Shown one piece after another: positions 1,013 to 58,654 of a stretch of 64,000 nt of DNA. This DNA comes from Candidatus Nanopelagicales bacterium (lineage in GTDB: Bacteria > Actinomycetota > Actinomycetes > S36-B12). The notes below the pieces were generated by a model that had not been told where the DNA came from, did no database searches, and saw nothing but the letters and a program-made list of their open reading frames with translations. A program made the position numbers and the translations under genes. The stretch is from positions 827,256-891,255 of the forward strand of contig JAGYJJ010000004.1 in assembly GCA_018402235.1 (NCBI GenBank), given 5' to 3'. Each line of letters begins with the position of its first letter. Position 1 is the first letter of the stretch.

Positions 1013-1473
1013 GCGGTGACTCCATCGGTCAAGTCAGGAAGCGGCCGGCAACGCATAATCAGGGCATCGCTGCCGTCGGGGTAGTAGCGGCTTCGCGTTG
1101 CGATGGTTTCGAATCCAGCGCCGGCGTACAACTTCTGCGCTCCGGTGTTGTCCGCGCGCACTTCCAAGATCATCGATGTAGCCCCTCGTTCGCGTGCACA
1201 CCCGAGCATCCTCGCCAGCAAGCGCCGACCGATTCCGGCTCCTTGATTGTGGGGATCAACGGCCAGGGTTTGCAGGTCACTATCGGGGCTGATCGTGGAA
1301 ATACCCGCGTACCCAAGCACGGCGCCGTCGTCGTCGGCCACTACGTAGTCGCGCGTCTGGCCAGCCAACTCGCGCCAGAACTGATCGACGCTCCAACAGT
1401 CCTGCGGAAAGCACGCCTGTTCGATGTGGTGCACGCGTGGGATGTCCCACCACCTCATCGGACGAACGGTCAT
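1009..1473 (-). CDS. rimI: GNAT-family ribosomal protein S18 alanine N-acetyltransferase-like protein RimI
   Basis: A 154-residue GNAT acetyltransferase. RimI acetylates the N-terminal alanine of ribosomal protein S18 in E. coli; actinobacterial homologues are less specific. The acetyl-CoA binding motif is visible as [15 protein letters not shown], followed by [19 protein letters not shown], the usual C-terminal half of the fold. The ATG at 1473 is chosen over upstream in-frame codons because it gives the expected start [14 protein letters not shown] and shares one base with the tsaB stop (TGATG). Its place between tsaB and tsaD is the classic actinobacterial order. The S18 target is inferred from the family and context. 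Confidence 0.9.
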
Positions 1474-2174
1474 CACGATGAACCTCCGGCTGCCTTTGCT
1501 GCCGGCGTCTTTGCGGAAATCGTGATGTCCGGGGCGCGCAGGTACAGCGGACGCGGCGCGAGCAACGGGCCGGCCGGAACCGTTACATCCGAGGCATCGG
1601 CCCCGTGCGGTGCCCACTGATGGGCGGTTGCCGTAGGCGCAAGACCGTCTGCGAGATAGCCGGCTACGCGCGCCGCCATCAGCGCCGGATCCACCTGCCG
1701 TTCGCGCACCACAGGAACATCGAAGTCAGTTATGTCTCGTGCCATCACCTGGGGACCGGCGAGGCGCATGGCAGTTGAGTCGTATCGAGCCCAGTAGATC
1801 TCGTTTCGGCGGGCATCGGTGGCGACCACGAAATCACCTGCATGCACGTGCTCGTCTACAACGGCCCAGGCGATAGCATCAAGGGAGCACACGCCCACCA
1901 CCGAGCACTGCCAGGCTCTCCCTAGCCCAATCGCGAACGCAATCCCCACCCGCAGACCGGAGTACGGACCCGGGCCAACGCCCACGGCAATGGCTTCAGG
2001 CTGCTGCCCGGCAAGGTGGTGCTGCACCTGCAGCATTAACCCATCGATCACTTCGGCGTGCTTGCGGCCACCTTCTTCGAACACCGCGAAACCCGGTTCG
2101 CCTGATCGCCCAAGACCCATACTTGTGACCGGCCCCGAGGTATCGATGGCGAGTACGAGGCTGCTCGTGATCAT
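1473..2174 (-). CDS. tsaB: tRNA threonylcarbamoyladenosine biosynthesis protein TsaB
   Basis: TsaB is the inactive ASKHA-fold partner that dimerises with TsaD and is needed for t6A formation at tRNA A37. The 233-residue protein starts MITSSLVLAIDTSGPVTSMG and contains GVGPGPYSGLRVGIAFAIGL, the most diagnostic segment of the family. It overlaps tsaE by four bases upstream and rimI by one base downstream, so the three are probably co-translated. Length is typical for the family. Confidence 0.94.
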   Translation of the reverse strand: MITSSLVLAIDTSGPVTSMGLGRSGEPGFAVFEEGGRKHAEVIDGLMLQVQHHLAGQQPEAIAVGVGPGPYSGLRVGIAFAIGLGRAWQCSVVGVCSLDAIAWAVVDEHVHAGDFVVATDARRNEIYWARYDSTAMRLAGPQVMARDITDFDVPVVRERQVDPALMAARVAGYLADGLAPTATAHQWAPHGADASDVTVPAGPLLAPRPLYLRAPDITISAKTPAAKAAGGSS

Positions 2175-2653
2175 GTTGATTGCTCAACAGCAGCAAGCAA
2201 CCGAGCCGAACGGGGGCCGTGCGATTGGATCGACAAAATACGTGCATCACCCTCGCCGCTGATACGCACATCGAGGTGGTCCGCCGGCAGCGCAGCCACT
2301 ACCCGCTCGCCCCATTCGATGACCGTGGCAACCGACTCCAGATCAAGATCGAGGTCATCCCACTCATGCAGCGAGGAAATGCGATTCGAGGAAATGCGAT
2401 ACGCATCAACGTGCACAAGTCCCACACCCGAAGTACCGATGGGCATTTCCCGTGCAACCACGAACGTAGGGCTGGTCACCGGATCCTCGATACCCATTCC
2501 CTGCGCAAGGCCCTGAGTGAACGTGGTCTTCCCGGCGCCAAGTTCCCCGGCGAGCACCACCACATCACCTGGGGTCAACGCCTGACCAAGCACCTCGCCT
2601 ATGCACCTAGTTCGCTCGGGTGATTGGGACGATATTTCCACCCGCGTTCTCAC
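2171..2653 (-). CDS. tsaE: tRNA threonylcarbamoyladenosine biosynthesis ATPase TsaE
   Basis: TsaE is the small P-loop ATPase of the t6A complex. The Walker A motif GELGAGKTTFTQG lies near residues 36-48, followed by SPTFVVAREM and HVDAYRISS, which matches the family pattern TSPTF...HxDxYR. The start is GTG at 2653, overlapping the upstream hydrolase stop by four bases. An oddity is the doubled RISSN-RISSL right after HVDAY, caused by a 15-base in-frame tandem duplication. Length is 160 residues, normal for the family. Confidence 0.93.
   Translation of the reverse strand: MRTRVEISSQSPERTRCIGEVLGQALTPGDVVVLAGELGAGKTTFTQGLAQGMGIEDPVTSPTFVVAREMPIGTSGVGLVHVDAYRISSNRISSLHEWDDLDLDLESVATVIEWGERVVAALPADHLDVRISGEGDARILSIQSHGPRSARLLAAVEQST
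2372..2401 (-). repeat. 15-base tandem duplication inside tsaE
   Basis: Two adjacent 15-base units, cgaggaaatgcgatt and cgaggaaatgcgata on the plus strand, differ only at the last base. They encode RISSN-RISSL in TsaE and keep the frame, adding five residues just after the conserved HVDAY segment. Confidence 0.85.
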
Positions 2654-3750
2654 GCCGCCCCACGGGTTGCGACCAGATCTCGTCGGACGCGGGCGATAAG
2701 TCCGGCGAGCAATTCGCTCACCTCGTGTGGTCGTTCCAGCATCACCATGTGACCGCTATCCCCGAGCACCGCGAACTCCGCTCCCGGGACTGCAGCGACG
2801 ATCTCTTCGCTCAGTTCCGGTGGCGTGAGTCGATCCGATGCACCAACGATCACCAGCAGTTCGGCGTTTTGGAAAATCGGTAACACAGCATGCTTGTCGT
2901 GTTCATGTAGTGCGGGAAGAAAATCGGCAACCACCTCCAACGACGTTCCTGCGAGCATGCGCGCTACAAAGCGCCCGGCTTGATCGGATGCCGGAGAACC
3001 GAAGGAATACACGCGAGTGAGCAATAGGCCCAGATCGCTATCGGACCACCCTTGAACAAGGTGCTCGCGCTCCGCGAGGAACTCCGCGATCGGGGGCGCC
3101 CAGGACTGCACCAATCGACCCAGCGGACCGGGCATACCGAGCGTGTTCGCTCGAACCCCGCCTGCTGTTGTCGCAACGAGCGCCACCCCGCGAACCCGCG
3201 AGCCGATTTGATCGGGATGCTGCTGCGCGTAGGCCATGACAGACATGCCGCCCATCGAGTGGCCCACGAGCACGATCGGTCCTTCGGGGACCACCGCTTC
3301 GATGACGGCTGCTAAGTCACTGCCCAACTGATCAACGTGGTGGGTATCGAATTCGGCCTTGGTGGAACGGCCATGGCTGCGCTGGTCATAGAAGACCAAA
3401 CGCGCGCTGCCCCGCAAATCTCGTCGCTGGTAATGCCAGGAATCTTGGGTGAGTGCATAGCCGTGGCAAAACACCACGGTGAGATCGGCAGCCGAGGGAT
3501 CATCGGGATCATCGGGTTCATCAGGTTCATCCACTTCCACGTGCAACCGGGTGCCGTCGGCAGTGATCAATTCGCGCACCTCACCGCGCAGCGTGCCCAG
3601 ACCTTCGTCGTCGTCGTCGAGCCGCGCTGAGCGCCGGATCAGTGCACGTTCAGCTAACACACCCACGGCAGCGCCAGCAGCGAGCACACCCGCGGCTGCC
3701 ACCCCACGGCCGGCAACACGCATCGCAGAAGTCAGATCCATCGGCGCCAT
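2650..3750 (-). CDS. alpha/beta-fold hydrolase
   Basis: A 366-residue alpha/beta hydrolase, substrate unknown. The nucleophile elbow GHSMGG places Ser at about residue 165, the acid is probably Asp306 (GASDRLTP) and the histidine His334 (GDSGHMVM); HGYALTQDSW is the oxyanion region. Residues 12-34 are Ala/Gly/Val-rich and could be a membrane anchor. A linker of repeated EPD/DPD units (about residues 75-86) follows. I chose the ATG at 3750, after alr, because codons further upstream would run into alr. It sits between alr and tsaE and overlaps tsaE by four bases; homologues often sit in this operon in actinobacteria, but its role there is not known to me. Confidence 0.85.
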   Translation of the reverse strand: MAPMDLTSAMRVAGRGVAAAGVLAAGAAVGVLAERALIRRSARLDDDDEGLGTLRGEVRELITADGTRLHVEVDEPDEPDDPDDPSAADLTVVFCHGYALTQDSWHYQRRDLRGSARLVFYDQRSHGRSTKAEFDTHHVDQLGSDLAAVIEAVVPEGPIVLVGHSMGGMSVMAYAQQHPDQIGSRVRGVALVATTAGGVRANTLGMPGPLGRLVQSWAPPIAEFLAEREHLVQGWSDSDLGLLLTRVYSFGSPASDQAGRFVARMLAGTSLEVVADFLPALHEHDKHAVLPIFQNAELLVIVGASDRLTPPELSEEIVAAVPGAEFAVLGDSGHMVMLERPHEVSELLAGLIARVRRDLVATRGAA

Positions 3751-3791
3751 TGTTGCCGATCGACCACGAGAAGTGGTGCTCCGACTACCGG

Positions 3792-4923
3792 CTATACGTA
3801 TTTGCGCGGGACCCGAGGGCCGATGCGCGTCACGATCTCGTATCCGATCGTGCCTGCCCACTGCGCCCAGTCCTCGGCCGTTGGCTCACCGTGGTTACCC
3901 GCACCGAACAGCACGACCTCATCCCCCGGGCGGTCAGCGGCGTTCGAGCCGAGGTCCACCACGAATTGGTCCATCGCGATCACGCCGAGAACTGGGCACC
4001 GCCGGCCATGGATGAGCACCTGCGCTGCGTTCGATGCTGCGCGCGGGATGCCGTCGGCATAACCCACCGGCACCAACCCCACGGTGGTGGGCGAGGTGGC
4101 CGTCCATGTTCCGCCGTAGGAAACCTTGTCGCCTATGGCGATCGTCTTGACGCTGGCCAACCGTGCGCGCAGCGTCATGGCCGGTCGTAAACCCAGGGCT
4201 TGCGCTGAGCCCAGCCCGGTGCCCGGCGTCACTCCATAGATCGCGATTCCGGCTCGGACGAGATCGAATGCGCAATCGGGTCGGTTGATTGCAGCGGCGC
4301 TATTCGCAATGTGACGAACCTGAGGCTCCACGCCGCTGGCTGTGGCAACGCCGAGTGCATCAAGGAATGCCAGCCGCTGCGCATCGGTCATCGGATCTTC
4401 GGGTTCATCGGCGCTGGCCAGGTGCGACCAGATGCCCACGATCTCCACGTGCCCCTCATCCTGGGCAACGCGGGCAGCCTCAAAGACCGAGCCCCACGAC
4501 GAGCGTGGAACTCCGTTTCGCGTCAGACCGGTGTCGACCTTGATGTGAATGCGCGCTCGCTTTGCCCAACCCGCGCGCTGCAGAAACAACGTCGATCAAG
4601 GACTGTTCGCACGAGATGGACAGATCCACGTCGGCGGCGATGCAATCCATCACACCCGGGTCACCCGGTACCCACAGCCACGCCAATAAACGTCCGCGGT
4701 CACCAGCTGCGCGAAGTTCGAGCGCCTCGGAGGGCAACGCCACACCCAGCCATTGCGCTCCGCTCTCTCGCAACATTCGGGCTACCTGCAATGCACCGTG
4801 GCCGTATCCATCGGCCTTGACGATCCCCATGACCGGGACACCCGCGCTCGACAAGCGCTCGTAGTTTGCAGCAATCGCGCCAAGTTCGATGACCGCTTCG
4901 GCACGGGTTGGATCGGCGGTCAC
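3792..4923 (-). CDS. alr: alanine racemase, reading frame broken by one extra base
   Basis: PLP-dependent alanine racemase converts L-alanine to D-alanine for peptidoglycan. The N-terminal part (from ATG 4923) contains the PLP lysine in GIVKADGYGHGA. The C-terminal part, in another frame, contains HIKVDTGLTRNG, the barrel segments, the catalytic tyrosine region KVSYGGTW and GVIAMDQFVVDL. The two halves join cleanly at RGLGK/RARIHIKV if one base near 4560 is removed, giving about 376 residues, the normal length. As written, the first frame ends early and no complete racemase is made. Because the gene is usually essential and both halves are fully conserved, an insertion error is the likeliest explanation. 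The start overlaps the nnr stop by four bases. Confidence 0.9.
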
Positions 4924-16916: not shown

Positions 16917-17516
16917 CTACTTGGTGTCGTCTGCGCCTTCTTCGGCGGCTTCCTCAGCGGCGACCTCGTCAACCGTCGCATCGACGATCTCATCGCTCAC
17001 TGCTTCAGCCGCTGCGTCCTCGGCAACTGCTTCGTCAGCCGCTGCATCTTCGACAACGGTCGCTACCGCAGTCGCTTCAGCTGCCTTCTCGGCCGTCTCA
17101 GCGTTCTCTTTAGCCGCGCGCTTGGTGGCGCCGGTTGCTTCAGCAACCACCTGCTCAAGCATCGGCTCGACAAGTTCGATCACGGCCATGGGGGCGTTGT
17201 CGCCCTTGCGCGGCCCGATCTTGGTGATGCGGGTGTAGCCGCCGGGACGGCCCGCGTACTGCGGACCAATCTCGGTGAACAACACGTGCACCACGGACTT
17301 ATCGCGCACGACGGTCATCACCTTGCGGCGAGCAGCGAGATCACCGCGCTTGGCAAAGGTGATCAGCCGCTCGGCGAGGGGACGCAGCCTCTTGGCCTTG
17401 GCCTCGGTCGTGGTGATCTTGCCGTGCTCGAAAAGCGCCGTCGCGAGGTTGGCGAGCATCAGCCGCTCATGTGCCGGACCACCGCCGAGACGGGGACCCT
17501 TAGTTGGCGTAGGCAT
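16917..17516 (-). CDS. rplQ: 50S ribosomal protein L17 with long acidic tail
   Basis: L17 core (about residues 1-120) starts [20 protein letters not shown] and includes [19 protein letters not shown] and [20 protein letters not shown]. An Ala/Glu/Val-rich acidic extension of about 80 residues follows and ends GADDTK; many L17 proteins stop near 120, so this tail is long. It lies 35 bases downstream of rpoA. Confidence 0.96.
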
Positions 17517-48264: not shown

Positions 48265-49011
48265 TCAGCCCTCGGTGGTCTCCGCCGCCTCGGCTGTTTC
48301 CGCAGCCGGTGCGTCGGGGGTCTCATTGGTTGCTTCCTCGGTAGTTGCTTCAGCAGCAGCCACCTCGGTTGCGGTTTCTTCGGTTGCGGCTTCGACTACC
48401 TCTTCAGAAGTGGCCTCTTCCACGGCAGTGCTCGTCGATTCCTCGACAGCAGCCTCCGCCGGTGCGGTGCTTGCCGTCGCGCTCGTGGCCGACGGATCGG
48501 ACTCGAGCTTGGTCTGCAACGCGCCAACGGCGCGAGCGGCCTTCGCCAACGGTGCCGCGAACAGCGCAGCAGCCTGGGACTGCTTGGCCTTCATTGCTCC
48601 GGCCAGCTTGGACAACAGCACCTCGCGTGATTCCAGGTTCGCGAGCTTGGTGAAGTCCTCTGGCGAAAGCAGTGCACCGTCCATGTATCCGCCCTTGACG
48701 ATCAAGGCCGGATTGTCCTTGGCGAAGTTGCGGATGCCCTTGGCGGCATCGACCGGATCGCCTTCAACAAAGGCGATGGCGCTCGGGCCAACCAACAGCG
48801 CATCGATGCCGTCGATACCGGCATCGGCGGCTGCCCGCTTGGTCAGGGTGTTCTTGACGACCGAGAACGTGACCGTCGGGCCCAGCGAACGACGAAGGTC
48901 CTTCATCTGGGCGACGGACAGGCCGCGGTAGTCGGTCAGGACGGCAACAGCAGACGCGCGAAATCGATCGGCGATCTCAGTGACGGTCGCGACCTTGTCT
49001 TGACGGGCCAT
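48265..49011 (-). CDS. rplJ: 50S ribosomal protein L10 with long acidic tail
   Basis: L10 anchors L7/L12 to the ribosome. The core starts [20 protein letters not shown] and has [20 protein letters not shown] and [15 protein letters not shown]. After about residue 175 comes an Ala/Glu/Thr-rich tail of some 70 residues ([15 protein letters not shown]), longer than the usual L10. ATG 49011 follows an AAGGAGGA ribosome binding site. 248 residues. Confidence 0.95.
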
Positions 49012-49150
49012 CGTGGCTTCCTCCTTAAACAGGACCGAACGACGGATCCGCGAGGAGGAGCGACGAGCGCAGATGAGCGCAGATGAAACTGCGAAACTCT
49101 CTCCTGCGCGGGTCGCCCGCTGCTGCGGGGCCTTCGACTCGATCATGCGA
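49012..49150 (-). promoter_or_regulatory. probable L10 leader region
   Basis: The bases ahead of rplJ should contain the L10 autoregulatory leader known from many bacteria. I see AAGGAGGA next to the start, GC-rich arms around 49110-49130 and a 10-base tandem repeat gagcgcagat at 49065-49084, but I cannot fold it with confidence. The rest of the gap up to 49237 shows no gene. Confidence 0.3.
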
Positions 49151-49240
49151 TCGAGCAACCTGCGGTCTTCGGCGGGCCAAACAGTACGCCACCAGATCTA
49201 CCGCAGACCAGCGGGGGCCAGGCTCACGGGTTCAGACATG

Positions 49241-49311: not shown

Positions 49312-51033
49312 CTAGTTGGCTGTAGCCAACGGGAACTTCAGCGGTTCCGGAGCGAAGAACCGGTCACGGTTCACGCCCGGCGCCCGGTAGGGCAGACGCT
49401 TGGCCGCAGCAACGGCCTTGGCCGTCTTGGCCTTGATCAACGCCTGGAGCGCCTTGACACCACCCACGTGCTGGTCAGCGGTGAAGGCGCAGTGGCCCAC
49501 ACCCGAACCGCCTGTAGCAGCCAGACTCAGCGCCGCGCTCGGGCTCTTGGCTCCCGGCTCGAACTTCGTGTACTCCAGATCCAGTGGATCTGTGTAGTAC
49601 TGAGCAGCCTTCAACATGCCCTTGTCATCAGCACGCTGCGCGGCCTTCGAACCAGCCATGTCCTCGAAGAACGTGTACTGATTTCCCGCCGGCACGATGG
49701 CGTCGTACGTGGTTGACATGAACACCGCAGGCTTGCGGTAGACCGGCTCGGCTGCCGGAAGGGCGTTCACGACGGTCACCGCGACAGGGTTCGCTGGGAA
49801 TCGAGCGGTCTGGCTGCCCACGCTGGCATCCAGCGCACCGAGCATGCGGTCAAGCACACCCGGTCCGGCGGCCGTGAAGGTGCCTTCGAACTCGTTGCGC
49901 TGCTCTAACGAGAGCAACTTGCTATACACGACGGGAACATTGTCGTTGAAGTTGGCGTTATCCGTCGGCGCCAATCCACCGATCGCGCGCGCGCGCTGCT
50001 CCAGGTCATAGCGACCCATGATGCCCAAAGCCGCTGCCGCTCCCACGTTCTGCAGCATGGCCGCAGTCGAGTTGGCGCCAGCAGACAGCGGGGCGAATCC
50101 GCCGGCAATCCCGGCACCCAATCCCTGCTCCGTGACCACGGGGTTCACCGTGATGCCGTCGTACTCCTGGGACTTGGTGGGCAATCCGCCCATCAGCCCA
50201 GCCAGCAGGTTGGCCTGGGCGATCGGGAAGCCGACAGGTGAGACGGTGGCCTGGCCGGTTGACACCGCATTGAGTGTCCCGAAGACCTTGGCCAGATCAC
50301 CCACTGCCTCCGCGTAACCGGCCTGGCCAGCGGAGTAGTTCGCGACCTTGAGGGTCGGATCGATCAGCGTCTTCCAGGTGTACAGCACCGTCATCGCGCT
50401 ACTGAATGCCTGCTCCGGGCCCTCCATCACGCCACACAGTGGCAAGGTTCCGGCGATCTTGCCCGGATTGCGCTGCACCAACGTCTGAGTAATGAGACCA
50501 CCGAGGGAATCTCCCCACGCGATGACTTCCTTGACACCAGATACAGCGCCACCGTTGATGTGACGGATGAGCAACTCGCCGGCCTCAACGCCTTCGGCAG
50601 TAGCCCAACCCTGCCGGGCGTAACCCGCACCAGCGAGGGCGTAGCCCTGGGCAAGGAGGTTCGCCGCAGACTCAGCCGACGGAGCAACCTGTGCTCCGCC
50701 GTTGCCCACGAGGGCCGGCCCGATTCCGGGGACCGTGGTCTGCGAGTAATACGGGGACCGATCCAAACCGAGCGCGCCAGCAATCTGCGCCGGAACCGGC
50801 TGAGCGATGCGGTACCCGTGCGAGTACAGCAGCACTGTGCCGTTGAACTTCGGCGGCATCGTGATCTGGAACGTGGTGTCGCCCAGCGAGCCGGTGAGCG
50901 CGCCGGAGCACGTCTCACCGAGCCCGCAGGCGTCGGCGGCATTAGCCGCCGGCGCCACGGTGGGAACGGCTACCAGCGCCAACCCCAGCGATGCGATTGC
51001 CGCAACGATGCGGCGGGACATAGTGATCTTCAC
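49312..51033 (-). CDS. secreted alpha/beta hydrolase
   Basis: A 573-residue exported hydrolase of unknown substrate. Residues 1-32 form a Sec signal peptide (MSRRIVAAIASLGLALVAVP, cleavage near ANA/AD). The nucleophile motif is WGDSLGG (Ser176), with LLYSHGYR as the oxyanion region, a possible acid in TTYDAIVPAGN and a histidine in GVGHCAF. The layout recalls bacterial secreted tannase-like or peptidase-like hydrolases, but no specific family is proven. Start GTG 51033. It follows the Liv-type binding protein by 29 bases, so the two are probably co-expressed and it might release a compound for import (inference). Confidence 0.85.
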   Translation of the reverse strand: MKITMSRRIVAAIASLGLALVAVPTVAPAANAADACGLGETCSGALTGSLGDTTFQITMPPKFNGTVLLYSHGYRIAQPVPAQIAGALGLDRSPYYSQTTVPGIGPALVGNGGAQVAPSAESAANLLAQGYALAGAGYARQGWATAEGVEAGELLIRHINGGAVSGVKEVIAWGDSLGGLITQTLVQRNPGKIAGTLPLCGVMEGPEQAFSSAMTVLYTWKTLIDPTLKVANYSAGQAGYAEAVGDLAKVFGTLNAVSTGQATVSPVGFPIAQANLLAGLMGGLPTKSQEYDGITVNPVVTEQGLGAGIAGGFAPLSAGANSTAAMLQNVGAAAALGIMGRYDLEQRARAIGGLAPTDNANFNDNVPVVYSKLLSLEQRNEFEGTFTAAGPGVLDRMLGALDASVGSQTARFPANPVAVTVVNALPAAEPVYRKPAVFMSTTYDAIVPAGNQYTFFEDMAGSKAAQRADDKGMLKAAQYYTDPLDLEYTKFEPGAKSPSAALSLAATGGSGVGHCAFTADQHVGGVKALQALIKAKTAKAVAAAKRLPYRAPGVNRDRFFAPEPLKFPLATAN

Positions 51034-51062: not shown

Positions 51063-52331
51063 TTACGGCAGCAACTTCCGGGTCGGGTTGGCCGGCTTGA
51101 AGTTGGCCCTCTTCGCCTTACCGGTCGAAGCACTGGTGGCCGTGATGATGTAGTTCGTCAAGCGGTCGAGCTCACCGTTGCTGTACTGACCCATCCAGTA
51201 ACCGGTCAGACCCTGGTGCGAGCTCTTGCTGTAGCGCAGCGGAACCGACGCGGCCGAGCGGAACTTGCTGGAGTTGGTCTCAAGGGAATTGATCAGACCC
51301 TTGCGTGTCAGGTTCGGACCAGCCATGTCGATCGCCTGGGCGAGGACGTAGGCGGTGTTGATGCCGTAGTAGGTGTAGAAGTTCCACGGCAGGTTAGCGC
51401 GATCAGCGATGACCTTCATCTGACGTACGTACGCGTTCCGGGTGTCTTGGATCGGGTGAATGAAGCTGGGTGTGTACACACCGTTCAAGATCCCCTTGGT
51501 GCCGACGAGTCCACCAACGATGTCCGGATCCGATCCGACCGAGGTGACCATCCAGGTGGGCTGGAAGCCCGCGCGAGCAGCAGTTCCCAGCAGGTTCGCC
51601 GTGGCCGAGGTCACACCGAAGAACACGACCAGTTCACAGCCAGCCGAACGAAGGGTCGATACCTGCGATGTCAGCGGCGACAATTGCTGGCCTGAGAAGT
51701 AGGAGGTCTCTGCGCTGAAGGAGATACCCGCAGCCTTGAACCCCGCCTTGGCGTTATCGCCAAACTCGCCGTCCTGGTACATCAAGCAACGCTTCTTGGC
51801 CTTGAGCTCAGGAGTGTTATCGATGTAGTAGCCCATGGCCTTGGATTCAACAATGTAGGAGGGGAAGAACGGGAAGGTGGTGGGGTAACGCCGAGGGTTA
51901 TCGAAGCTCGCCGCTCCCGTGTTCACGAATACGTCGGGAATGCCGCGTCGGTTGAGGTCGGCGATGACGGATGAATGAGTGGGCGTACCGAGCGCACCGA
52001 ACATCGCGAAGATCTTGTCGCGGTTGATCAACTGCGCGGTGCCGACCTTCGTCTTGGCGGGGTTGTACTGATCGTCGTAGACCCTCAGATCGATTTTGCG
52101 ACCGTTGATCCCACCATTCGCGTTCACGTAGTCGAAGTAAGCCTCGGCTGCTGCAGGGATGTCCTTGTAACCGGGAGCCGCTGGTCCGGTAAGCGGCGTG
52201 GTCATGCCGATGGTTATCGAGTTCCTGGTAACACCAGGATCCGCTGCCGAGGCCGGGGCGATGGCCCCAGCCATTCCGAGTGCGGTCACGGCGCCGATGG
52301 CTACCGCCCGCTTTGCAAAGGCCTTACCCAC
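51063..52331 (-). CDS. branched-chain amino acid type ABC transporter substrate-binding protein
   Basis: A 422-residue periplasmic-binding-protein-like domain of the LivJ/K family. The signal peptide (VGKAFAKRAVAIGAVTALGM to APASA) is cleaved by signal peptidase I: no lipobox cysteine is present, unusual for a Gram-positive binding protein, which is normally a lipoprotein. The mature start is ITIGMTTPLTGPAAPGYKDI, followed by NANGGINGRKIDLRVYDDQY. The C-terminus is basic (KAKRANFKPANPTRKLLP). Start GTG 52331, with GGGAGG upstream. It belongs with the LivM, LivH, LivF and LivG genes just upstream; the ligand could be an amino acid or another small organic acid. Confidence 0.92.
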   Translation of the reverse strand: MGKAFAKRAVAIGAVTALGMAGAIAPASAADPGVTRNSITIGMTTPLTGPAAPGYKDIPAAAEAYFDYVNANGGINGRKIDLRVYDDQYNPAKTKVGTAQLINRDKIFAMFGALGTPTHSSVIADLNRRGIPDVFVNTGAASFDNPRRYPTTFPFFPSYIVESKAMGYYIDNTPELKAKKRCLMYQDGEFGDNAKAGFKAAGISFSAETSYFSGQQLSPLTSQVSTLRSAGCELVVFFGVTSATANLLGTAARAGFQPTWMVTSVGSDPDIVGGLVGTKGILNGVYTPSFIHPIQDTRNAYVRQMKVIADRANLPWNFYTYYGINTAYVLAQAIDMAGPNLTRKGLINSLETNSSKFRSAASVPLRYSKSSHQGLTGYWMGQYSNGELDRLTNYIITATSASTGKAKRANFKPANPTRKLLP

Positions 52332-52472: not shown

Positions 52473-53885
52473 TCAGCGACGGTTGAGGCGTTTAGCGAAC
52501 CCCTGGACCCCGCCTACGAGCCCCCCAGGCGCTGCAAGGACCACGAGAACTACCAGGATTCCGTAGAGGAAGTTCGGGGCATTGTTGGTGATTTGGTCGT
52601 CCCAACCCCGGTCAGCGGACACGTCCAAGACGAATTCGGGTAGCCAGACCAAGATGACGGCACCGATCATGGCTCCGATGAGTGACGTTCGGCCTCCAAG
52701 GACGATGCCCACGAGCAAAGACAGGGAAAGCCCGAGAGTGAAGGCCCCTGGGCCCACGAAACTGAGGATCTGCGCAAACACGGCCCCCGCGAGGGCCGCG
52801 AACAGGCTGCTCACGACGAAGGCTGAGATCTTCGATCCCGCTGGGGAAATGCCCGAGACGGCGGCCGCCACCGGGTCATCTCGAACTGCTTGCCAGACCC
52901 GTCCCTGGCGTCCGCGCACAAGGTTCAAGGCAACGAAACCCACGATGCAGGCAACCGCGATCGCGACAGAGGCCTGCCACTGCTCGATGACGAACCCAGC
53001 GTCGAGGCCGTCAATGGCCGAAACATCCGAACCGAGGTCTCCCTCCACACCGAAGGCCTCGTCGTCGAATGCCTCCTCGGGCACGACATCGTCCGTGGTG
53101 AAACCATCGTTGGTGGAGAAGTCGTCGTCGCTCAGGAAGTCGTCGTCGGACAAAAAGTCGTCGTCACCGAGAAAATCGTCGTCGGACAAAAAGTCGTCGT
53201 CGCTCAGGAAATCCTCATCCGAAAGAAAGTCATCACCGGCGAAATCGTCTTCGATAACGGCCTGCTCGTCCGTGAATAAGTCATCCGGAAGTTCCTCGTA
53301 CAACGGTTCATCGCCCCCACCAAGAAATTCGTCGGTCGATGCATCATCCGTGAGGCCGCCGGTAGCAGCTGCGTAACCGCCAGCAGGGTAGGGAACTTGG
53401 ATCATTAAGCCGTTCTCGCCGCCGAGTAAGCCGGGAAAACGATTAGCGATGGCGGGGACTCCCACGGCGATGCCCAGTGTTAAACCTGCGAGGTACGGAC
53501 CCTTAAGACGCGCGGCAATGCCACCGATCAGCAAACCGAAGACAACTCCGCCGATTCCGGCGAACACCATCGACCAGACAGCGTTCCATGGAGTACCCAA
53601 GATGGGCACGGTCTGCCAATTCAATGACGTCAGGGCGAATATGTAGCCGCCCACGGCCATCAATGCGCCGTTGCCGAGTGACACTTGTCCGGAAAGCCCA
53701 ACGAGGATCGTCATGCCGAACATTGCTGTCGCGTACATCGCCGCGGTAGCCAGGTAGTAGCTCAGCAGCGGATCGATGAACTGATTGATCCAAGTCAAGA
53801 GCCCGAAGATGACCAAGGCGATCAGGGCATGGCTGACCAGTCGAGTTCCCGGTAGTCGCTCCGTAAGGCTAGTGAGTCGCGACAT
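52473..53885 (-). CDS. livM: LivM-type ABC permease with acidic repeat insert
   Basis: Inner membrane permease of the branched-chain amino acid importer family, 470 residues. Helices near 20-40, 44-64, 70-90, 103-125 and 130-148 precede the insert; helices near 305-323, 354-375, 378-398, 404-420 and 440-458 follow. GLSGQVSLGNGALMAVGGY and the coupling loop VWQAVRDDPVAAAVSGISP are typical. Between GGENGLMIQ (about 158) and helix 6 there is an acidic insert of roughly 120 residues with D-D-D-F-L-S/G repeats (about 215-258), replacing a usually short loop. The topology puts this loop outside the cell. ATG 53885 shares one base with the livH stop; GTG 53888 is an alternative. Confidence 0.92.
   Translation of the reverse strand: MSRLTSLTERLPGTRLVSHALIALVIFGLLTWINQFIDPLLSYYLATAAMYATAMFGMTILVGLSGQVSLGNGALMAVGGYIFALTSLNWQTVPILGTPWNAVWSMVFAGIGGVVFGLLIGGIAARLKGPYLAGLTLGIAVGVPAIANRFPGLLGGENGLMIQVPYPAGGYAAATGGLTDDASTDEFLGGGDEPLYEELPDDLFTDEQAVIEDDFAGDDFLSDEDFLSDDDFLSDDDFLGDDDFLSDDDFLSDDDFSTNDGFTTDDVVPEEAFDDEAFGVEGDLGSDVSAIDGLDAGFVIEQWQASVAIAVACIVGFVALNLVRGRQGRVWQAVRDDPVAAAVSGISPAGSKISAFVVSSLFAALAGAVFAQILSFVGPGAFTLGLSLSLLVGIVLGGRTSLIGAMIGAVILVWLPEFVLDVSADRGWDDQITNNAPNFLYGILVVLVVLAAPGGLVGGVQGFAKRLNRR
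53115..53249 (-). repeat. 18-base tandem repeats encoding D-D-D-F-L-S units in livM
   Basis: About seven six-residue units, from E-D-D-F-A-G and D-D-F-L-S to D-E-D-F-L-S, then D-D-D-F-L-S/G several times, ending D-D-D-F-S-T. The codons vary at silent positions (TTC CTG AGC, TTT TTG TCC, TTT CTC GGT, TTT CTT TCG), while the residues are kept. Confidence 0.9.
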
Positions 53886-54763
53886 CACACGGTCCGAGCC
53901 TTGTGGTGGGTGAACACACCCTCGGGCTTGAACAACAAGTTGACGACGAGCAGGACGAGCGCAACGACCGGGGCGTTGCTGGAATCTGTGTAGCCAGATA
54001 CGAGTGAGATCACCAGTCCGGTGCCGATTCCGAAGGCCACCGCGCCTACCAAACTGTCAAGGCCGCCGATAACCGCCGCGGTGAAGGCGAAAACCAAAAA
54101 GACATCGAAGGCAGTGGGTGAGAGCGTTGTCAATGGCGCAACCAGCACACCGGCCACAGCCCCTACGAATCCCGCAATTGCCCAACCGAGAACCAACATG
54201 CGACTCACGCGCACACCCGATAGTCGGGCCACTTCAGGGTTGAACGCCGACGCCCGCATGGCGAGACCGACAGACGTGCGAGTGAAGACGATTGTTAACG
54301 CCAGCACCAATACGATGACTGTCACGACCACCAGGAGGTCGTACGGGGAAAATGGCCATACACGCCCACCGATTTCGAAGCCCGTGTTCCTGATCGGCGG
54401 CGGGAACGCCTTACCGTCTCCACCCCAGATCATTCCAGCGAACGCTTCCAACGCGATGAGTACGCCAAACGTCGCGATGATCGCGCCGGAGGTATCCATG
54501 CGCTTGACCGGCCGAATCACCAGGAAGTGGACGATCACGCCGAGCACCAGGCCAGAGGCCAATGCAGCCGCAAGTGCAAGCAGCCACGATCCCGTCAGGT
54601 CCCGAACCGTCAAGGCTATGAAAGTGGTGAACATCGCCTGCGCCAGTTGCGCAAAGTTCACAACGCGTGTCGATCGCCACACCAGCACTAGGGCGAGCGC
54701 CATCAACGCGATGATCACACCCGACGAGATGCCGCCGAGGAAATAGTCGATGAAGTTCGTCAT
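53885..54763 (-). CDS. livH: LivH-type ABC permease
   Basis: Second permease of the importer, 292 residues with about eight hydrophobic helices. It starts MTNFIDYFLGGISSGVIIAL; GLAMRASAFNPEVARLSGVR is the cytoplasmic coupling loop and FAFTAAVIGGLDSLVGAVAF is the conserved late helix. It overlaps livM by one to four bases and follows livF by 27 bases. No insert is seen, unlike its LivM partner. Confidence 0.93.
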   Translation of the reverse strand: MTNFIDYFLGGISSGVIIALMALALVLVWRSTRVVNFAQLAQAMFTTFIALTVRDLTGSWLLALAAALASGLVLGVIVHFLVIRPVKRMDTSGAIIATFGVLIALEAFAGMIWGGDGKAFPPPIRNTGFEIGGRVWPFSPYDLLVVVTVIVLVLALTIVFTRTSVGLAMRASAFNPEVARLSGVRVSRMLVLGWAIAGFVGAVAGVLVAPLTTLSPTAFDVFLVFAFTAAVIGGLDSLVGAVAFGIGTGLVISLVSGYTDSSNAPVVALVLLVVNLLFKPEGVFTHHKARTV

Positions 54764-54790: not shown

Positions 54791-55495
54791 TCAGTAGCCC
54801 AGGTACGCATGACGCAACTCCTCGTCCTGTGCGATCTCTTGCGCAGGTCCGCTCTTGACGATCTCCCCGAGGTTCAACACGATGCCGGTTTTGGCAACAC
54901 GCAAGGCAGTGGTTGCGTTCTGCTCAACCAGAAGAACGGCCAGTCCGGAGTCCTTCGCCATGGTGCCGACCAATTCGAGGATCTGCGTAACGATCAACGG
55001 AGCCAGACCAAGCGATGGTTCGTCGAGCAGGAGCACCTGCGGACCGGTCATCAATGCTCGACCAATGGCCAGTTGCTGGCGCTCACCACCGCTGAGGGTG
55101 TCCGCACCGAGGGATCGACGCTCGCCCAACACAGGGAACAGCGTGTAGGCGCGCGTGAGTGAGGTATTGCGCTGGGCATGCGTGCGCCACATACCCCCGA
55201 GTTTCAGGTTCTCCTCGACCGTGAGGTCGGGAATGGTCGAGCGACCCTCGGGCACTAGCGCAATACCCATCCGAACTACGTCCTCGGGCTTGCGCCCGGT
55301 GATGTCCGTGTCGTTGAACGTCACGCGGCCGGACTGCGGCTTCTCTAGACCGGCGAGTGTGCGCATCAATGTGGACTTACCCGCGCCGTTTGCGCCAATA
55401 ACCGCGGTAACGCGGCCGGGGGGTACTTCGAGGGAGACGCCCTTCAACGCTTGAACGGCGCCGTAGCTGACCGATAGGTCCTCGATGGTCAACAT
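54791..55495 (-). CDS. livF: LivF-type ABC ATP-binding protein
   Basis: ATPase subunit, 234 residues. Walker A is GANGAGKSTLMRT, the signature LSGGERQQLAIGRAL, Walker B LLLDEPSLGLAP and the H-loop position LLVEQN, where Gln-Asn replaces His as in most LivF proteins. The start ATG 55495 shares one base with the livG stop, so the two ATPases are translationally coupled. Confidence 0.94.
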   Translation of the reverse strand: MLTIEDLSVSYGAVQALKGVSLEVPPGRVTAVIGANGAGKSTLMRTLAGLEKPQSGRVTFNDTDITGRKPEDVVRMGIALVPEGRSTIPDLTVEENLKLGGMWRTHAQRNTSLTRAYTLFPVLGERRSLGADTLSGGERQQLAIGRALMTGPQVLLLDEPSLGLAPLIVTQILELVGTMAKDSGLAVLLVEQNATTALRVAKTGIVLNLGEIVKSGPAQEIAQDEELRHAYLGY

Positions 55496-56290
55496 CAGGC
55501 GCCGACCTCTTCTTCTTCGCCGAGGTAGGCCGCGAGCACTGCCGGGTCGTTACGCACTTCATCCGGGCTTCCCGCGGCGATGACCTTGCCAGCATCGAGC
55601 ACCCAGATGAGATCGCATACCGCCATGACAAGTTCCATGTGGTGCTCCACGAGCAACACCGTGCGCTCGGGTGTCCAACTGCGGATCAAGCGTCCGAGTT
55701 CGGCCATGTCGCCGGCACCGATGCCACCCGCGGGTTCATCGAGCAAGAGCACCTTGGGATCACTGACGAGGGCACGAGCAAGCGCCACGCGCTTTTGCAC
55801 CGGGTAGGGCATCTCACCTGGAAGCCTGTTCGCCTCCTCGAGCACGCCCAGTTCAGCCATCGCTGCCTCGGCGCGCTCTCGAATCTTGCGCTGCTCGACG
55901 TCGACCCAGGGCAGCGCCAGCGAGTCAGCAACGATTCCACTCTTCACGGTGCCCGAAGCCCCGAGCATCACGTTCTCTAGTGCACTGAGCGATGGAAACA
56001 GCCCCACACCCTGCAATGTCCGCGGAGATACCCATCTTCGACAGATGGTGCGTCTTGATGTGGCGCAGCCGCTTGCCGTCGAATTTCACCTTGCCAGAAT
56101 CGGGCTTCACGAATCCGGTCATGACGTTGAAGACGGTGGTCTTGCCCGCACCGTTGGGACCGATCAGTCCGGTGACTGACCCCTCGGGGATACCGATGCT
56201 CACTTCATTGAGGATCTGCAGGCCACCGAAGGACACACTTATGTCCACGGTCTGGAGCAGAGGATGTGTGAGCGGAAGGTGATACTTCAC
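55495..56290 (-). CDS. livG: LivG-type ABC ATP-binding protein, reading frame broken by one extra base
   Basis: Second ATPase subunit. The first part has Walker A GPNGAGKTTVFNVMTGFVKP and ends at HHLSKMGIS; the rest continues in another frame as RTLQGVGLFPSLSALENVML. Walker B is LLLDEPAGGIG and the H-loop LLVEHH. The segment before Walker B reads MPYPVQKRVALARAL instead of the usual LSxGQ signature, so the signature itself may be weak or degenerate. Removing one base at about 56023 restores GISRTLQGVGLF, which fits the family perfectly. The repaired protein is about 264 residues. As written it is truncated. Confidence 0.9.
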
Positions 56291-57686: not shown

Positions 57687-57748
57687 AGTTCTCGTCGATC
57701 TGGCTCAACGCCAGCTCAGTTCTTGTCGATCTGGCTGAACGCCAACTC
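57687..57748 (-). repeat. 31-base tandem duplication at the nusG stop codon
   Basis: Units 57687-57717 and 57718-57748 match at 28 of 31 bases. The upstream unit encodes the last residues [10 protein letters not shown] of NusG; the second copy would encode [10 protein letters not shown] with a TAA, but in a frame shifted by one base, so NusG stops at the TGA between them. Confidence 0.85.
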
Positions 57749-58654
57749 AACGGGGGTCTCGCGTCCGAAGATCTCGACCAGGCCGGTCACCTTCTGGGCT
57801 TCGATGTTGATCTCGGAGATCGTGGCGTGCAAAGTAGCGAACGGCCCATCGACCACCGTCACAGAATCGCCCACCGAGAAGTCGATCTCGATAGGCGTGG
57901 CGGCCGCCGCAGCGGCTTCGCCGATGCTGGTCGGGCCGGCAGCCGCAGCAGGCTTCTTCTCTGGCGTGGGGGCAAGGATCGCCACTACTTCGTCCAAGGA
58001 CAACGGAGCGGGCGAGTGCCCATGACCGACGAAGCCGGTCACACCGGGCGTATGACGAACCACACCCCATGACTCATCCGTTAGGTCCATCCGAACCAGG
58101 ACGTAACCGGGGAACTTGTTGCGCTTGACCTGCTTGCGCACACCGCTTTTGATCTCGGTGACCTCTTCCATCGGAACCTCGACCTGGAAGATGTAGTCCT
58201 CCATGTTGAGCGTGGTGGTGCGCGCCTCAACGTTGCCCTTCACCTTGTTCTCGTAACCGGAGTACGAGTGAACTACGTACCAATCACCCGGAGCGATGCG
58301 CATCTCCTGGCGGAATGCCTCGACCGGATCGATCTCCTCTTCGACGACTTCTTCGGCAGCTTCGGCTGAGTCCGCTTCAACTGCGTCCGCTTCAACTGCG
58401 TCCGCTTCAACTAGAGCGTCGGCAGCGGATTCCGCAGCAAGGTCGGCATCGCCGGCCGCGTCCGCAATCTCCTGCGCCTCAGCAACGACCTCTGCCTCGG
58501 CTTCGGCTTCGGCCTCGTCGATTAAGACGTCGTCGGCGGAGGTGGTCGGCTCGGTGAACTCGATCGCGTCGCCAGCAGGCTGACTCACATCAGACTGGTT
58601 CGCGTTCTCACCGACCGAGAACGGGTCGATCGATGGCTGGTCCTGCTCGGACAC
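57716..58654 (-). CDS. nusG: transcription termination/antitermination factor NusG
   Basis: NusG couples RNA polymerase to Rho or the ribosome. An acidic, Ala/Glu-rich N-terminal extension of about 115 residues precedes the NGN domain ([20 protein letters not shown] to [20 protein letters not shown]). A spacer of about 45 residues rich in Ala and Pro follows, then the KOW domain [20 protein letters not shown]. The long acidic arm is typical of actinobacteria. 312 residues. Confidence 0.96.
58371..58415 (-). repeat. 15-base tandem repeat in the nusG acidic arm
   Basis: Three 15-base units tccgcttcaactgcg (last one ending aga) encode repeated V-E-A-D-A in the acidic N-terminal arm of NusG. Confidence 0.8.

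Follow-up and report, generated by a model that had tools for sequence, protein, structure and literature searches.

Within family f1, a group of aquatic actinobacteria, the charge of an acidic loop in the LivM-type permease and that of the basic C-terminal tail of its substrate-binding protein evolve together, as shown statistically on the sequences. We tentatively read the loop as a landing pad for the free binding protein, added to a system that was already free, and regard this as quite possible, if short of probable. Both elements lie in the window (the whole 64,000-nucleotide stretch of DNA that was analysed), in a minus-strand cluster with the gene order livG-livF-livH-livM-binding protein-hydrolase (Table 1). 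On its gene content, the cluster is a Liv-type (Peripla_BP_6/LivFGHM) importer with a free secreted binding protein.

Table 1. Features of the importer cluster, in positions of the window.
Feature	Position	Strand	Basis
Secreted alpha/beta-hydrolase-like protein, adjoins binding protein	49312..51033	-	weak PF12146 match, under cut-off
Substrate-binding protein (Peripla_BP_6), secreted free, 422 aa	51063..52331	-	PF13458 E 1e-52
C-terminal tail KAKRANFKPANPTRKLLP (residues 405-422), basic, net +6, no acidic residue	51066..51119	-	sequence
Signal peptidase I type signal, residues 1-29, no Cys	52245..52331	-	read from sequence
LivM-type permease	52473..53888	-	PF02653 E 1.9e-27
LivM insert (residues 173-298), acidic and disordered, repeated DFLSDDDF-like motif	52995..53372	-	sequence and AlphaFold
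LivH-type permease	53885..54763	-	PF02653 E 2.1e-29
LivF-type ATPase	54791..55495	-	ABC_tran E 1.2e-32
LivG-type ATPase, two frames	55495..56290 (55925-56290 and 55495-56016)	-	Pfam match on each half

The binding protein scored 180 bits on PF13458 (cut-off 31.7), which places it in the Peripla_BP_6 family, and comparison of its predicted model pointed to a fold like those of 4n03 and 3lkb (Z about 41). The best structural match, 4n03 from Thermomonospora curvata (Z 41.0, rmsd 2.5, 364 aligned), has 21% identity, and its alignment stops at model residue 408, with most of the tail beyond. The permease has a BPD_transp_2 domain and LivH, LivF and LivG as neighbours, as expected of LivM; NF008450 (LivM) matched it at E 3.7e-28, far under the model cut-off of 366 bits, and the NCBIfam branched-chain amino acid importer models likewise scored far under cut-off for this system. 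A PDB sequence search gave no match for LivM, and Foldseek gave none under E 0.001 for its model (best PsaBC, E 0.57). The hydrolase had no close family and no PDB sequence match. livG is broken across two frames that overlap, either by a real break or by a sequencing error; most relatives carry it as a single ORF (about 260-310 aa).

A GGGAGGG ribosome site precedes the GTG start codon of the binding protein at 52331. The signal of the protein, MGKAFAKRAVAIGAVTALGMAGAIAPASA followed by ADPGVT, has an AxA site and no Cys. The orthologues keep the AxA-type signal end and likewise lack a lipobox, so the protein does not have the mark of a bacterial lipoprotein, the lipobox Cys. The start, the AxA site and the missing lipobox bear out the signal peptidase I type signal without Cys proposed in the first-pass annotation, and the strongly basic C-terminus proposed there also holds: among the 376 18-mers of the mature protein, net +6 was reached only by the 4 C-terminal ones. 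The tail ends in LLP in 16 of the 17 aligned rows, the seventeenth being one codon short from the coordinates given. In the AlphaFold model (17 sequences in, mean pLDDT 88.4), residues 401-422 have pLDDT of about 86-92, so the tail probably lies on the protein body and is not a free string. The "tail" is thus not predicted to be floppy.

The missing lipobox is special in this genome. A genome-wide absence of lipoproteins is ruled out by lgt, present here and in all of the 21 genomes searched, and by the lipobox of 8 of the 10 other binding proteins of the same genome (five Pfam families searched, three LacI-type regulators set aside). The two others without a lipobox are L032 and L244, and no permease was seen adjoining either. 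In genus g14 (L143-L156), we observed tandem arrays of Peripla_BP_6 proteins in which 18 of 21 ORFs have no lipobox; the 14 loci of these arrays gave no permease match. Binding proteins of the family therefore need no loop to be free.

The acidic outside loop that had been claimed for LivM was recovered as 126 aa between VPYPAGGY and FVIEQW, with 48 D/E, 0 K/R and a net charge of -48. AlphaFold gave pLDDT <50 across most of residues 169-297 and showed the fifth membrane helix (131-150) before the insert and helix 301-325 after it. Since five membrane helices precede it and helix 301-325 leads into the cytoplasmic coupling segment, helix counting in the model puts the insert on the extracytoplasmic side. 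Loops of f1 are about 70-170 residues long, with charges from -9 to -69. The 32 complete inserts (3834 residues) contain 1030 D/E, no Cys, no Trp and a single K/R, against 10.3% K+R in the ORFs of the window. The repeat core is D-[LMF]-L-[TS]-x-[DE]-[DN]-F. A DLLTxDDF-like pattern, drawn up after viewing the inserts and hence a description and not a test, occurred in 32 of 36 inserts that were long enough (partial ones in, the window's own out), 91 times in total against 0.3 after shuffling; the inserts of L042, L064, L068 and L179 lack it. Repeats of 18 and 36 bp are visible in the DNA at 53117-53231, inside the insert, so its length likely changes through slippage. Other acidic tracts nearly without K/R lie at 48268-49158, 57719-58654 and 16920-17516 (minus strand), being RplJ, NusG and a third ORF. 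Titles and abstract openings, in a coverage with most subscription journals outside it, held no report of such an acidic loop.

We then compared relatives. A search of family f1 with the binding protein gave matches in 45 of 85 genomes at E 1e-60, and a class-wide search in 116 of 394, of which the regions of 40 places were used; 8 further f1 matches coincide in coordinates with loci already in the set and are no independent replication. After duplicate removal, 117 binding-protein loci remained: 42 f1, 33 f31-like (assigned by family label or score), one f6 (L070, of the same order), 35 lipobox loci (34 recognised by pattern and L131 by eye), plus 6 others. The f1 proteins have no lipobox wherever the N-terminus was read, and their tails run from +2 to +6 (mean 4.4, n=38). 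A long acidic loop was measured in 32 of the 42 loci, the remaining 10 being cut off or having LivM outside the region retrieved. The f31 proteins also have no lipobox; their tails run from -1 to +4 (mean 3.0, n=32) and their loops are short in all 33 (31 measured, 2 by eye). L070 has no lipobox, no insert and a +1 tail. In the lipobox loci, tails run from -8 to +1 (mean -2.7, n=35, including L238, whose ORF runs on so that the value is not that of the real C-terminus), and the loop is short in all 32 of the 35 loci where it could be read (24 measured, 8 by eye). Every measured f1 permease thus has the insert, which was found in none of the f31, f6 or lipobox loci. Two Acidimicrobiia loci have neither lipobox nor insert.

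The co-occurrence expected by the first-pass annotation therefore held in part: among the measured loci, without exception, an insert goes with a missing lipobox and a lipobox with a missing insert, whereas the converse fails, as 33 f31 loci and L070 lack both, so that the proposed replacement of the anchor does not survive the test set for it. In a FastTree tree of 109 sequences, f1, f6 and f31 group in one clade with support 0.99; the two Acidimicrobiia loci attach to it (1.00), and every lipobox protein falls outside. The root used fits either a lipobox loss in the clade or a gain in the others. Support for f1 versus f6 is low (0.30), f6 being a single sequence without insert. Having no anchor is an old character that f1, f6 and f31 share, and tails are basic in f1 and in the majority of f31 proteins. 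Because the clade without lipobox is older than the insert and f6 and f31 lack the latter, the insert is most simply a gain within the f1 line that came after the free form. Beyond f1, f31-like actinobacteria appear to run importers with unanchored binding proteins widely.

Loop and tail charge gave a raw rank correlation of -0.80 over 23 pairs, uncorrected for relatedness. Independent contrasts over 27 f1 pairs, on a tree built without the tail, gave r -0.57. Under a Brownian null, p is 0.001 as a single test and 0.076 for the best of 334 windows, i.e. with the tail not named beforehand; the tail windows rank first of the 334 for co-variation with loop charge. Adding the window, L034 and L068 raised n to 30 and gave r -0.55 (p about 0.001), the LivM-core tree r -0.53, and tail lengths set at 12 to 30 residues r -0.50 to -0.67. 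Loci of f1 with incomplete loops or tails were excluded from these contrasts. None of the controls tracked loop charge: r was -0.08 for the binding-protein body, -0.01 for the 22 residues preceding the tail, -0.14 for the hydrolase (n=21), -0.09 for LivH (n=26) and +0.21 for LivF (n=23). Genus g14 is a counter-example, with a loop of -9 in one species and a tail of +5 in another (binding proteins 95% identical over 416 aligned residues); added as one point, it gave r -0.53 (p 0.001, n=31). We must also note that the binding-protein ORF of L034, in a draft genome (G008), is interrupted by an in-frame TAG, and that in L045 the binding protein and hydrolase share one ORF of 1022 aa (1288-4353, minus strand), with LivM frame-broken inside its repeats.

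The one observation which suggests that loop and tail touch is this co-variation of charge. In the landing-pad reading, an importer of the f1 line would already have worked with a free binding protein when its permease gained an outside, disordered acidic loop, nearly free of K/R and growing by repeat slippage. The loop would weakly bind its own binding protein, on the face with the basic tail, through multivalent electrostatic contacts, and might thereby raise the local binding-protein concentration at the translocator and speed docking. Contact, capture and benefit are the conditional parts of this scheme, which builds on the position, composition, spread, order and co-variation described above. 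The best-window p of 0.076, the predicted order of the tail and the weak g14 loop beside a +5 tail speak against it. A more specific version, in which a non-covalent multivalent tether (a disordered, repeat-built acidic loop and a basic C-terminal patch, acting through charge and the DLLTxDDF motif and tunable by repeat number) recruits the free binding protein in a monoderm, seems to us doubtful. Because f31 proteins have basic tails and no loop, the tail must serve some other function as well.

The first-pass annotation had proposed that the acidic loop replaces the lipid anchor and retains the free protein at the cell. Its pairing of loop and tail is supported by the co-varying charges in f1, and the mutual exclusion of insert and lipobox would also fit the proposal. 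Nevertheless, L070 and the f31 loci have free proteins although they lack the loop, and the idea that the free form arose by anchor replacement is rejected on that ground. On the tree, too, the free state came first, so the lipid was not superseded by the loop. With the lipobox-less arrays of g14 also standing against it, we consider a retaining role in place of the anchor very unlikely. The proposal that the binding protein is free in order to collect the product of the neighbouring secreted hydrolase off the membrane, with the loop incidental, is the least probable of those weighed here. The hydrolase gene does lie next to a free binding protein in 31 of 33 f31 loci (2 undecidable), in the f6 locus and in 27 of 42 f1 loci (6 undecidable), and in 0 of 35 lipobox loci, but 9 f1 loci with room downstream have no hydrolase there and keep a free protein, and the charge co-variation is left unexplained.

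Two further explanations concern the charges themselves. The loop could be low-complexity sequence grown by slippage, with little function, and kept acidic by a tolerance or preference of the lineage for such tracts. The 18- and 36-bp repeats agree with this, and among 68 non-overlapping ORFs of the window, 5 (RplJ and NusG included) contain an acidic K/R-poor 60-mer; because of these other tracts, a general tendency of the lineage to grow acidic sequence stays a serious rival. Set against it are the insert kept in every measured f1 permease, the motif core conserved between genera and a co-variation specific to the tail with null controls, and on balance we think it unlikely. Alternatively, loop and tail might answer separately to a common factor, such as salinity or wall charge, with no mutual contact. 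Genus g1 is among both the most acidic loops and the most basic tails, and f31 tails are basic without a loop, as this explanation would have it; however, the body, the secreted hydrolase, LivH and LivF fail to track loop charge, and we rate it as distinctly unlikely.

The system is like the LivJ/LivK-LivFGHM branched-chain amino acid importers in gene families, operon and fold (Peripla_BP_6, BPD_transp_2), and differs from them by the 126-aa acidic insert in LivM and by a free binding protein in an organism taken as monoderm. In importers of the OpuA type, the binding domains are fused to the permease and so held near the translocator; both arrangements would keep the binding domain there, here without a covalent link. 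Lipoprotein binding proteins of Gram-positive ABC importers, the subject of a review (PMC7530257), belong to the same family and operon in 35 actinobacterial lipobox loci, whereas the protein described here has no lipobox, an adjoining hydrolase gene and a basic tail in place of a neutral or acidic one. A pneumococcal lgt mutant shows widespread ABC defects (PMC3404074), which by analogy suggests that a monoderm pays for lost anchoring with poorer uptake. The binding-protein transcripts of several transporters in acI actinobacteria, including branched-chain ones, range from 1.7 to 411 times the median (PMC5574706); by analogy with these transcripts, perhaps of other genes, anchoring could matter less where binding protein is in high supply. 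As a co-evolving pair, loop and tail would provide a concrete, removable interaction in monoderm importers with unanchored binding proteins, for which the orthologues with loop charges from -9 to -69 form a natural test set.
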